NCBI GenBank assembly: GCA_030832185.1
Contig: JAURJQ010000031.1
Location: forward strand, 1-51,256
Length of the DNA: 51,256 nt
Source: Chitinophagales bacterium
GTDB lineage: Bacteria; Bacteroidota; Bacteroidia; Chitinophagales; JADJOU01
Reading direction: 5' to 3'
The position numbers and the translations under genes were made by a program. A model generated the notes under the pieces. It saw only the letters and a list, made by a program, of their open reading frames with translations, made no database searches and was not told where the DNA came from. Of this stretch, positions 1,770-5,591 are shown piece by piece. The first letter of the stretch is position 1. Every line of letters begins with the position of its first letter.

Positions 1770-3629
1770 CTATCTCCCTATGTGCACCATTAAAATAGCA
1801 ATATCGCTTGGATTTATACCGCTGATTCTCTTGGCGGCGCCAAGCGTCTTAGGTCTTATTTTGGTAAATTTCTGTCGAGATTCTGTAGACAAGGAATTCA
1901 CTTTTTCATAATTGAATGTCTCGGGAATAATGAGTTCTTCTAGGCTGAGGGATTTATTGACCACATCTTGTTCCTTCTCGATATAGCCTTGATATTTGTG
2001 TTCTATCTCTGCGGAAGATAAAGCAGAAAATGAAAAGGTGTCAAAGTTAGATCTAACTTTTTCTATACGCATAAGATGTTCTAGACTTACTTGTGGTCTC
2101 GTCAGAATATTAGCCATAGGCATTTGCTGCTTCAAATCTGCCGTACCCAGCTCAGCAAATAAGCCGTTAACTTCTTCGGGGGTTATCTTAACTTCTTGAA
2201 ATAAACTTAATATCTTCGCTATCTCCGTTTTGCGTTCTTGATATTTAGATACTCGCTCTTCGTTGGCGAGGCCTATTTCCTTCCCTATAGGGGTTAATCT
2301 CTGATCCGCATTATCTCCTCGCAATAAAATTCTATACTCTGCCCTACTGGTAAACATACGATAGGGTTCATCGGTACCTTTATGCACAAGGTCATCTATT
2401 AAAACACCGATATAGCTTTCGTGTCTTCCTAATACCAGTGGTGGTAAATCATCTATGCTTCTTGTAGCATTAATGCCAGCTAAGAGGCCTTGCCCTCCTG
2501 CTTCTTCATATCCTGTGGTGCCATTTATCTGTCCTGCGAAATAAAGTCCTTTGATCAGCTTGGTCTGCAAGGAGTGGTCCAACTGCATAGGTGGAAAATA
2601 ATCATATTCAATGGCATAACCTGGGCGATACATTTTAGCATTTTCAAAACCGGGGATCAACTGTAATGCTTTGTATTGCACATCAAATGGAAGCGAGGTG
2701 GAAAATCCGTTGACATAGATCTCATTCGTATTCCATCCTTCTGGTTCTACAAAAATTTGGTGTCTTTCTTTATCTGCAAATCGATTTATTTTATCTTCAA
2801 TACTGGGACAGTATCTTGGACCTACGCCTTCTATACTTCCGTTAAACATAGGGCTGCGATCAAATCCTTCTTTGAGCGCTTCATGAACATTTTCGTTCGT
2901 ATATGTAATCCAGCAACATCGCTGTTCTTTTGGTTTTTCTGTATCCATGAAAGAAAATCCTTCTATAATTTCATCTCCAGGTTGTTCTTCCATTTTAGAA
3001 TAATCCAAGCTTCGTCCATCAATTCTTGGGGGCGTACCTGTTTTCATTCTACCCGACTCAAAACCTAAAGAAAGCAACTGTTCAGTAATACCTGTTGCTC
3101 TGCTCTCTGCTGCTCTTCCCCCTCCAAAGTTTTTATCGCCTATATGAATTAAACCATTGAGAAAAGTTCCGTTGGTTAGTACCACTGCCTTCGATTGGAT
3201 TTCTATTCCCAGCTGAGTTTTTACTCCTACCACTTTATCACCTTTTATTAAAAGACCTGATACCATTTCTTGATAAATATCAAGGTTAGATACATTCTCT
3301 AGGGTATGTCTCCAAATAGAAGAAAAAAGGTTTCGGTCATTTTGGCTTCTTGGACTCCACATAGCGGGTCCCTTACTCCTATTCAGCATACGAAACTGTA
3401 TCATAGATCTATCAGAAATAATGCCAGACATTCCGCCCAATGCGTCTATTTCTCTTATAATTTGTCCTTTAGCCACACCACCCATAGCTGGATTACAAGA
3501 CATCTGTCCCATCACCTGCATATTCATGGTTATAAGGAGTGTTTTCTTTCCTATACTAGCTGCTGCATAGGCCGCTTCACAACCAGCGTGACCAGCACCG
3601 ACTACAATAATATCATATGGATCGAACAT
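1770..3629 (-). CDS. mnmG: tRNA uridine-5-carboxymethylaminomethyl modification enzyme MnmG (GidA)
   Basis: MnmG works with MnmE to install the cmnm5 group on wobble U34 of several tRNAs, using FAD and a folate cofactor. The 619 residues are close to the usual 620-630. The FAD-binding loop VVGAGHAGCEAA is at residues 9-20, the GidA signature GPRYCPSIEDK lies near residue 270, and the second signature (AGQINGTTGYEEAGGQG, near 365-381) is intact. A helical C-terminal region for MnmE contact ends the protein. The ATG at 3629 is followed directly by the FAD-binding strand, so the start is secure. A parS-like palindrome lies 37 bp upstream. mnmG next to segregation or origin elements is an old bacterial arrangement. 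Confidence 0.97.
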   Translation of the reverse strand: MFDPYDIIVVGAGHAGCEAAYAAASIGKKTLLITMNMQVMGQMSCNPAMGGVAKGQIIREIDALGGMSGIISDRSMIQFRMLNRSKGPAMWSPRSQNDRNLFSSIWRHTLENVSNLDIYQEMVSGLLIKGDKVVGVKTQLGIEIQSKAVVLTNGTFLNGLIHIGDKNFGGGRAAESRATGITEQLLSLGFESGRMKTGTPPRIDGRSLDYSKMEEQPGDEIIEGFSFMDTEKPKEQRCCWITYTNENVHEALKEGFDRSPMFNGSIEGVGPRYCPSIEDKINRFADKERHQIFVEPEGWNTNEIYVNGFSTSLPFDVQYKALQLIPGFENAKMYRPGYAIEYDYFPPMQLDHSLQTKLIKGLYFAGQINGTTGYEEAGGQGLLAGINATRSIDDLPPLVLGRHESYIGVLIDDLVHKGTDEPYRMFTSRAEYRILLRGDNADQRLTPIGKEIGLANEERVSKYQERKTEIAKILSLFQEVKITPEEVNGLFAELGTADLKQQMPMANILTRPQVSLEHLMRIEKVRSNFDTFSFSALSSAEIEHKYQGYIEKEQDVVNKSLSLEELIIPETFNYEKVNSLSTESRQKFTKIRPKTLGAAKRISGINPSDIAILMVHIGR

Positions 3630-3665: not shown

Positions 3666-3681
3666 TGTTCCACGTGGAACG
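3666..3681. other. parS: parS-like ParB-binding palindrome, copy 1
   Basis: TGTTCCACGTGGAACG lies in the short gap between ybeY and mnmG. It matches the widespread chromosomal parS consensus (TGTTNCACGTGAAACA and its symmetric forms) and differs from the second copy only at the last base. ParB binds such sites to start chromosome segregation. The central CACGTG with GTTC/GAAC arms is a perfect 14-bp palindrome. Confidence 0.75.
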
Positions 3682-3683
3682 TT

Positions 3684-4163
3684 CTAATAATGATAAACAC
3701 TCTTGTTCCACGTGGAACAATTCTTCTGTATAAATTTAATATATTTATTTTCCTCTTTTCTCATAATTTTTTTCTCACTATTTGTTTCATCGTTATAGCC
3801 AATAATATGAAGAAAACCATGAATCAACACTCTGTTAATTTCTTCACTTATCTCTACATTATATATTCTCGCATTTTTTTTTACCTCTCCTAGTGAAATA
3901 TAAACATCTCCTGTTAATTCACATTCTGTATTAACTAAACCAAATGTCAATATATCTGTATTATAATTGTGGTCTTTAAACGTAGTATTCATCTTTATTT
4001 GTTCTTGAGAACAGATGAAATTATAACTCATATATACTCTTTTTTTTCCACACAACTTTTTTATATATCTTAATAAACACTCTTTATTAATAGTGGTTTT
4101 TATTAGATTCTTAAATTTAGGTTTTGAGTAATTAAATTCAATAAAAACTTGCTTCTTTACCAT
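3684..4163 (-). CDS. ybeY: Endoribonuclease YbeY (rRNA maturation factor)
   Basis: YbeY is a zinc-dependent RNase needed for 16S rRNA 3'-end maturation and ribosome quality control. The metal site reads HGFLHIIGYND: two His of the HxxxH motif are present and the usual third His is replaced by Asp. The substitution resembles HxxxHxxGxxD metal sites, and I recall it as common in Bacteroidota. The long open frame begins at 4193, but that start would overlap the upstream gene by 29 bp. The internal ATG at 4163 gives a 159-residue protein one base after the upstream stop (TAATATG), so I prefer it. The gene is markedly richer in A+T than mnmG. Its 3' end carries a parS site. Confidence 0.9.
   Translation of the reverse strand: MVKKQVFIEFNYSKPKFKNLIKTTINKECLLRYIKKLCGKKRVYMSYNFICSQEQIKMNTTFKDHNYNTDILTFGLVNTECELTGDVYISLGEVKKNARIYNVEISEEINRVLIHGFLHIIGYNDETNSEKKIMRKEENKYIKFIQKNCSTWNKSVYHY
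3704..3719. other. parS: parS-like ParB-binding palindrome, copy 2
   Basis: TGTTCCACGTGGAACA is a perfect 16-bp palindrome whose centre lies 38 bp from that of copy 1. It is inside the last codons of ybeY, where it encodes the residues CSTWN on the minus strand, so the coding sequence has accommodated the site. Two sites in tandem at such short distance make chance unlikely. I found no further CACGTG core with matching arms in the window. Confidence 0.8.
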
Positions 4164-4164
4164 A

Positions 4165-4917
4165 TTAAAAGAATTTATACTTTCCACTTTCATCCACAGT
4201 TATAGATGGTAATAATCTTTTCTTATCAAAATATTCATATCCTTCTTTAAGATTAGTCCAAAAATCTAATATCTCTTGTTTTCCACTAAAATAATCCTTC
4301 TTCATTTTATTAAAATTGTTTAGCGTTAACTTTGTAGGATATATATGAATAGGTATTTGTTCTTGACCTACCGCTTTAGCGTATATATTAATTAAATATA
4401 TTGTTTCCATCACTGAATCAGTCATAGGCAGACAACCTATAGTTTCACAGCCTCCATGAATATATATATCCCCACCCAATTTTTCTTTATTTCCTAGTAT
4501 TCTATCACTTTCATTAGGATAGGATATTTTCAAAGATAAGTGATACTTACTACATGGATTAAAATTTTCTATATAATAAAAACCCTCTGGTATCTGGAAA
4601 TCTCCTTCCTGTCGTTTAGGTCCTAAATCACCTATAGTTTCACAGATAGAAAACGACTTTATTAAAACATATTTAGAACTATCATCTGAAAAAGCCCATA
4701 ACTCCAGTACTTTATTCCATTTCATAGCCCGCCAAAAGATTCTATTCGAAGGAAATTTTATGCTCTTAGTATTAAATAGAGACACTACATTATTATACCT
4801 TGATAAATTAGCTACTGAAACACGAGGCTGCTGTAATTGATTCGCTAGCCAATCTTGAGAGAATGAAGAAGTATTCATTATTAAAAGAAAACAAAAAGAA
4901 AATAAAAATTTATTCAT
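4165..4917 (-). CDS. Secreted L,D-transpeptidase (YkuD/YafK type)
   Basis: A 250-residue exported protein. Residues 1-20 (MNKFLFSFCFLLIMNTSSFS) form a signal peptide ending near the SFSQ site. The catalytic YkuD motif is IYIHGGCETIGCLPMTD, near residues 151-167, with the nucleophilic Cys in TIGC and the paired His in IHGG. This spacing is that of the YafK/ErfK subgroup, which act on peptidoglycan stem peptides in the periplasm as cross-linkers or hydrolases. It is the first gene of a pair with ybeY, which starts one base after its stop. Upstream lies a 371-bp gap with no gene. The strong AT bias matches ybeY and the gap. Confidence 0.85.
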   Translation of the reverse strand: MNKFLFSFCFLLIMNTSSFSQDWLANQLQQPRVSVANLSRYNNVVSLFNTKSIKFPSNRIFWRAMKWNKVLELWAFSDDSSKYVLIKSFSICETIGDLGPKRQEGDFQIPEGFYYIENFNPCSKYHLSLKISYPNESDRILGNKEKLGGDIYIHGGCETIGCLPMTDSVMETIYLINIYAKAVGQEQIPIHIYPTKLTLNNFNKMKKDYFSGKQEILDFWTNLKEGYEYFDKKRLLPSITVDESGKYKFF

Positions 4918-5288
4918 AAAACGAAATTAACAACAGTAATAATATTATATAAATCTTTTTTTAAATAGAGAAATTTAAGCCCTATTATTAGTTGTGTGAA
5001 TTGGGTGATAAATATTGGTTATAAGTATTGACAATGATAAATTAAACAATTTAAGGGAGGTAACGAACAAAATTAATATTTTTAAAAACTTTATAATTAG
5101 TAATTTACATATTATTATATACATGTGTGGATTAAATGAAAAGGAAAAGTTTTTTTATGTGAGTTGTGAATAGAATATGAGAATAATAACAAATAGATCA
5201 AGGAAAATGAGGATAAATGGCTAAATAAAAATATGGGAATAGAGTCTTGTGTATAAAAAGGGATTTATCATTTATTTTCTAACAGTTT
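4918..5288. other. oriC: Candidate replication origin: AT-rich gap with DnaA-box-like row
   Basis: No open frame worth calling lies here. Against the DnaA-box consensus TGTGNATAA (complement TTATNCACA), four sites share one orientation: TGTGGATTA at 5126-5134 (one mismatch), TGTGAATAG at 5165-5173 (one mismatch), TGAGGATAA at 5208-5216 (one mismatch) and TGTGTATAA at 5248-5256 (full match). They start 39, 43 and 40 bp apart. An inverted one-mismatch site, TTATCCAAA, is at 5289-5297 and overlaps the ybaB stop. A weaker site is at 4995-5003. Just before the row, 5069-5124 is almost pure A/T and could be an unwinding element. The paired parS sites are 1.2-1.6 kb away. Against this, genes on both flanks run on the minus strand, with no divergence here. 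Confidence 0.45.
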
Positions 5289-5591
5289 TTATCCAAATAT
5301 GTTCATACCAGGAATATTCGGGACGAGAGATTTTAATTCACTCATTATATATCCTTCAGATTCATTCAATGCTCTTTTTATAGTATCTTGTAAAAGAACT
5401 TCCTGCTCGATAAGACTTAATGTAGAGAAACCTTCACTAAATTTAATAGAAGTAATATCTTTTTTCCCGTTGGTAGTAATGGTAATTATATTCTGAGGAT
5501 CAGAAGTTGTAAAATAAGTAGACTCAACCTTTGTTTTAAGGTGATTGGCTTTTTCTTTTATCTCACCAAGTTTGGATAAAATGTCGAACAT
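5289..5591 (-). CDS. YbaB/EbfC-family nucleoid-associated protein
   Basis: A 100-residue protein with the YbaB layout. A helical N-terminus (FDILSKLGEIKEKANHLKTK) is followed by a central beta region containing DPQNIITITTNGKKDITSIKF, and a C-terminal helix with LLQDTIKRALNESEGYI. Family members form dimers that bind DNA without strong sequence preference. In many bacteria the gene follows dnaX, but here it stands alone beside a candidate origin. It appears to have its own promoter (5616-5623), 25 bp upstream of the ATG. The stop codon overlaps a DnaA-box-like site. The length is typical for the family. Confidence 0.88.
   Translation of the reverse strand: MFDILSKLGEIKEKANHLKTKVESTYFTTSDPQNIITITTNGKKDITSIKFSEGFSTLSLIEQEVLLQDTIKRALNESEGYIMSELKSLVPNIPGMNIFG

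Follow-up and report, generated by a model that had tools for sequence, protein, structure and literature searches.

The intergenic gap at 4918-5288 is the predicted chromosomal replication origin (oriC) of a Saprospirales-like freshwater Bacteroidota bacterium, a reading to which we assign a probability of about 0.87. The window, i.e. the whole stretch of DNA analysed, is one complete contig (C25; 51,256 bp) of a 2.2-Mb genome in 31 contigs, whose MnmG is 96% identical to that of the closest named relative, a 'Saprospirales bacterium' MAG. A preliminary description had proposed a candidate oriC here, and this proposal is supported by a cluster of DnaA-box-like sites, the least stable DNA, a switch in strand composition, conservation of the gap and the proximity of parS sites. 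As in DnaA-dependent origins, the box cluster is combined with an AT-rich element, the composition switch, conservation and a DnaA protein with a box-binding domain. The prediction places the origin of an uncultured lineage of freshwater Bacteroidota within a gap of 371 bp, supports the use of the parS/mnmG/ybeY locus instead of dnaA for finding origins and orienting draft genomes in these orders, and provides a compact conserved candidate for studying how Bacteroidota origins open.

Genomic setting of the predicted origin

The genes around the gap are all located on the minus strand, in the order mnmG, ybeY, an L,D-transpeptidase-like gene (LDT), the gap, ybaB and anmK. The features of the locus are as follows:

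1770-3629, minus strand: mnmG (gidA); Pfam GIDA, 5e-162
3667-3680: parS 1, palindrome GTTCCACGTGGAAC, in the mnmG-ybeY gap
3684-4193, minus strand: ybeY; Pfam YbeY, 4e-24
3705-3718: parS 2, palindrome GTTCCACGTGGAAC, inside the 3' coding end of ybeY
4165-4917, minus strand: LDT, left neighbour of the gap; Pfam YkuD, 6e-4, below the cut-off; gene order conserved
4918-5288: predicted oriC, LDT-ybaB intergenic gap, 371 bp, GC content 22%, with box cluster, composition switch and conservation
5289-5591, minus strand: ybaB/ebfC, right neighbour of the gap; Pfam YbaB_DNA_bd, 2.6e-8; reading frame ending ..NIFG*

A small SET-domain protein (141 aa) is encoded next to mnmG at 1256-1681 of the window. 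The gap region gave no match in an Rfam search. As in mnmG-linked origins, the gap lies near mnmG, whose start is 1.3 kb away, and away from dnaA, which is located on a separate contig (C7) and encodes an intact DnaA of 474 aa with N-terminal, AAA+ and helix-turn-helix domains, domain IV being present. The parS pair, spaced by 38 bp, is located 1.2 kb from the gap, which confirms the earlier statement that parS and mnmG are found within 1.6 kb. Its two sites are the only ones in the 2.2-Mb genome, so that the genome-wide search found none near dnaA, and the pair is kept in relatives. With ParB encoded on contig C16, parS sites and their binding protein are both present, as in ParABS-linked origins.

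DnaA-box-like sites and AT-rich DNA

Sites were counted per 300 bp as matches to TTATNCACA with at most one mismatch. The four co-oriented sites and the inverted site at 5289 listed in the preliminary description were all found at their positions, together with further ones:

5115-5123, plus strand: box-like TTATATACA, convergent with the box at 5126; kept in the related genomes G002 and G003, TTATTTACA in G001
5126-5134, minus strand: site 1, TGTGGATTA as read at 5126, TAATCCACA on the minus strand
5165-5173, minus strand: site 2, TGTGAATAG as read at 5165, CTATTCACA
5178-5186, minus strand: box-like site TTATTCTCA, absent from the earlier list; kept in G002
5208-5216, minus strand: site 3, weak, TGAGGATAA as read at 5208, TTATCCTCA
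5248-5256, minus strand: site 4, TGTGTATAA as read at 5248, TTATACACA, an exact TTATNCACA
5289-5297, minus strand: TTATCCAAA, discounted as a box; last codons and stop of ybaB (..FG*)

With 7 sites per 300 bp, the gap region was the best of the contig, the runner-up stretch containing 3. The genome background reached a maximum of 4 sites per 300 bp in 420 kb of sampled sequence, and 54 equally AT-rich windows of the same genome did not exceed 2. Dinucleotide shuffles of the gap contained 0.9 ± 0.9 sites compared to 6 observed, and 0 of 400 shuffles reached 6. The boxes are degenerate: only a single one matches TTATNCACA exactly, and most carry one mismatch. In the homologous gaps of G001 and G003, three near-matches each were found, a marginal excess over shuffles (0.07 and 0.03). 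The same count revealed no box cluster near dnaA on C7.

The regular spacing of about 40 bp, previously regarded as the strongest argument, carries less weight. Near-equal spacing of four among five co-oriented sites occurs in 0.7-1.7% of random placements, the even series is interrupted by the fifth site at 5178, box 3 is gone in the nearest relative, and neither box 3 nor box 4 is conserved. As a box, the inverted site at 5289 had to be abandoned: since TTATCCAAA ends ybaB, its conservation is that of coding sequence and cannot be counted as box evidence.

Two AT-rich segments accompany the sites and are candidate unwinding elements:

4945-4982: AT-rich segment inside a convergent pair of box-like cores, candidate unwinding element A
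5069-5124: AT block, candidate unwinding element B

The block at 5069-5124, described before as a nearly pure A/T block adjoining the boxes, indeed contains only 4 G/C in 56 bases. By computed energy, which describes stability and not unwinding itself, 5071-5120 represents the least stable 50 bp of the contig, with none less stable in 400 kb of the genome; next in this ranking for the contig is the 50-bp segment beginning at 4928.

Strand-composition switch

Uncorrected GC skew across the window reaches its minimum near 15 kb and was rejected as an origin marker; it is misleading, as the genes at 5-15 kb are on the lagging strand. Because gene orientation dominates the raw skew, a change-point model with the gene strand as covariate was fitted to the G/C and T/A balance at four-fold sites. 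For four related genomes, the joint optimum was found at -250 bp from the gap centre with a total gain of 245 lnL, positions -250, 0 and +250 being within 2 lnL of one another; the fit resolves positions to no better than about ±500 bp and does not by itself separate the gap from neighbouring DNA within about 1 kb. In G005, a member of another genus, the fit put the switch on the homologous gap (gain 171 lnL; 2-lnL range -250 to +500), and likewise in G001 (gain 49 lnL; -500 to +1000). The window's own switch agrees and is weak (5 lnL), with only 4.9 kb available to the left. In G003, the optimum was 6.75 kb off and 4.8 lnL better than the gap. At the dnaA locus of the same genome, the fit gave no switch. 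The four-fold T/A skew on the G005 contig C139 (loci L021 and L041-L046) is unusually strong, with an A-rich instead of T-rich leading strand, its sign being opposite to that of G025.

The complete chromosome G025 belongs to the same order; its sampled GC skew is negative over the first 1.34 Mb and positive from there to 2.85 Mb. In G025, parS is located at 1.347 Mb, and the flip is within about 20 kb of parS/mnmG. Its local change-point fit was set aside: it is shallow, with the best position 10-19 kb from parS and a gain of 8-9 lnL, and therefore only the chromosome-scale flip was used. G049 and G024 likewise switch at mnmG/parS, and the complete genome G050 gave no usable signal in GC skew. 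The GC-skew check suggested for the candidate thus came out in its favour, with an orientation-corrected switch at the gap in relatives and the flip of G025 at mnmG/parS. The lack of gene divergence at this point had been held against an origin. Divergence is indeed missing, but this is not a valid counter-argument, since the genes in the roughly 10 kb on the right-hand side are simply on the lagging strand.

Conservation of the gap and a convergent pair of box-like cores

The gap is kept in position and in length (370-377 bp) in five species from two genera of one family, in the second genus even though the sequence barely aligns. Compared to G002, it is 96.2% identical, versus 82.5% at four-fold sites. 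Conservation of the boxes in close relatives, named earlier as a check, was found for sites 1 and 2 across the genus but not for sites 3 and 4, the site at 5289 being coding. Site 1 has the same position in 4/4 genus members (TGTGGATT or TGTGAATT) and forms the best four-way block, and the TGTGA core of site 2 follows at 39-40 bp from site 1 in 4/4. Site 3 becomes TTTTCCTCA in the nearest relative, and site 4 is kept in G002 and lost in G001 and G003. At the genus level, the core reads TGTGRATT (AATYCACA) and differs from the canonical box by one change.

The most conserved element, a pair at 4925/4995, had been missed by the preliminary description:

4925-4932, plus strand: conserved element AATTAACA, left half of the convergent box-like core pair with 4995
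4983-5002, plus strand: most conserved non-coding 20-bp block, TATTATTAGT-TGTGTGAATT; 13/20 columns invariant in five species

The block at 4983-5002 consists of a trio-like TATTATTAG and the box-like TGTGAATT at 4995-5002. In 5/5 species of the two genera, AATTAACA and TGTGAATT are convergent and 68-70 bp apart; when each region was shuffled, 1-2% of the shuffles contained a comparable pair. A 20-nt inverted repeat at 4925-4944/4983-5002 was dismissed, as its 16/20 matches equal the shuffle median and only the conserved spacing of the cores stands out.

mnmG loci in other Bacteroidota

A parS-like site was detected near mnmG in 64 of 89 Bacteroidota loci, mostly less than 200 bp upstream of mnmG, and in other Bacteroidota, intergenic clusters of canonical TTATCCACA boxes lie no more than 8 kb from mnmG. 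Genomes of the Cytophagales type have strong canonical-box clusters at a distance of about 4.3-4.8 kb beyond the start of mnmG, whereas in Chitinophaga (L054, L062, L070, L079, L102, L111) the cluster is 3.5-8 kb before mnmG, and in G024 it is about 9 kb from mnmG. As the clusters are found on either side and at varying distance, the landmark is constant and the box array shifts its position relative to it. The cluster is absent from some mnmG loci; with the consensus used here, none was found at mnmG in G025, G037 and G049, which weighs against the oriC reading.

Six of the mnmG loci (L083, L085, L112, L116, L117, L124) carry 10-11 near-canonical boxes per 300 bp about 4.3-4.5 kb after the mnmG start, and these dense clusters are probably the origins of their genera; the one of Dyadobacter (L116) is flanked by a Big_5-domain gene and a TPR gene. 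The Chitinophaga cluster checked in L070 lies between a SurA-like PPIase gene and nadA, and nadA is also beside the cluster of Sphingobacterium L106, there past mnmG.

Alternative explanations

An origin nearby but outside the gap, e.g. in the parS/mnmG-ybeY gap or the next few kb, with the cluster being a DnaA reservoir or a part of the origin, is unlikely. It would agree with the change-point of G003, which prefers a position 6.75 kb away in a fit resolving about ±500 bp at best, and with the clusters of other families 3-9 kb from mnmG on either side. However, the contig is without any other box cluster, the conserved gap is also where the DNA is least stable, and G005 and G001 put the switch on the gap. 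Considerably less probable is that the gap is an ordinary long promoter or 5' region of LDT with box-like words that are regulatory or due to chance in AT-rich DNA. The gap is directly upstream of this co-directional gene, AATTAACA is at most 15 bp from the LDT start codon, and conservation of the gap could be regulatory; yet stretches of the genome that are equally AT-rich contain no more than 2 sites per 300 bp, and the strand-composition switch and the parS pair would be left unexplained.

An origin at dnaA on contig C7 is the arrangement common in many phyla outside Bacteroidota, and this general pattern is what speaks for it. Around this dnaA, however, neither a box cluster nor a composition switch nor parS was found, and such an origin is highly improbable here. 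The suggestion of the preliminary description that an oriC without dnaA is plausible in Bacteroidota fits with dnaA on C7 and with published origins of this kind, Bacteroidetes origins being described as commonly far from dnaA in a Prevotella genome paper (PMC4755523).

Proposed mechanism

For the gap as oriC, DnaA from the distant dnaA gene would bind the conserved sites at 4995, 5126 and 5165, with 5178, 5208 and 5248 as presumably weaker sites. The TGTG ends of the sites face left to the AT-rich blocks, a polarity as for R1 and the unwinding element of E. coli. A DnaA-ATP filament may then grow into the AT-rich DNA (5069-5124 and/or 4945-4982) and open it, to the left of 5126 and/or to the left of 4995, and the opened DNA would allow helicase loading in both directions. 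ParB on the parS sites at 3667 and 3705, 1.2 kb off, is expected to segregate the new origins. It is conceivable, though doubtful, that the pair AATTAACA/TGTGAATT, whose CACA ends both face the AT-rich centre, forms a double, symmetric module for unwinding. If so, two inward-facing DnaA filaments would open one element and set up two helicases, and the co-oriented boxes further right would be the loading array.

Comparison with known systems

Since origins far from dnaA and marked by mnmG are already published, the one predicted here is of a known kind and not a new one: far-from-dnaA origins are reported for Bacteroidetes and mnmG as marker for Flavobacteriaceae, and the LDT/ybaB position and the convergent pair are local details. 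A limited literature search found no paper on an experimentally mapped origin for this group. In the Flavobacteriaceae Mariniflexile litorale (PMC11278836) and Algorimicrobium (PMC12843772), Ori-Finder 2022 predicted oriC near mnmG; like here, these are distant from dnaA, beside mnmG and supported by GC skew, whereas here the origin would be in the LDT-ybaB gap, 1.3 kb from mnmG, with degenerate boxes. The oriC of Prevotella intermedia chromosome I, as outlined in PMC4755523, resembles the present one in that its boxes cluster where the skew changes, at a distance from dnaA; unlike our account, that outline does not give the parS/mnmG context.

The basal unwinding system (BUS) consists of a DnaA box and at least three DnaA-trios (3'-GAT-5') within 16 bp of the box (PMC8287927), and the trio-like TATTATTAG beside the conserved TGTGAATT is similar to it. 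The trio pattern occurs many times on both strands of all five regions and matches almost anywhere in AT-rich DNA, and is therefore uninformative here. In E. coli, oriC is located between mnmG and mioC and has a TTATTAG word between R1 and the AT-rich element (L198). The predicted origin shares with it the neighbour mnmG, an AT-rich element facing the TGTG end of a box as for R1, and a TTATTAG word between box and AT-rich element, while it differs in the number and order of boxes, in the nearby parS pair and in mnmG not being directly adjacent.
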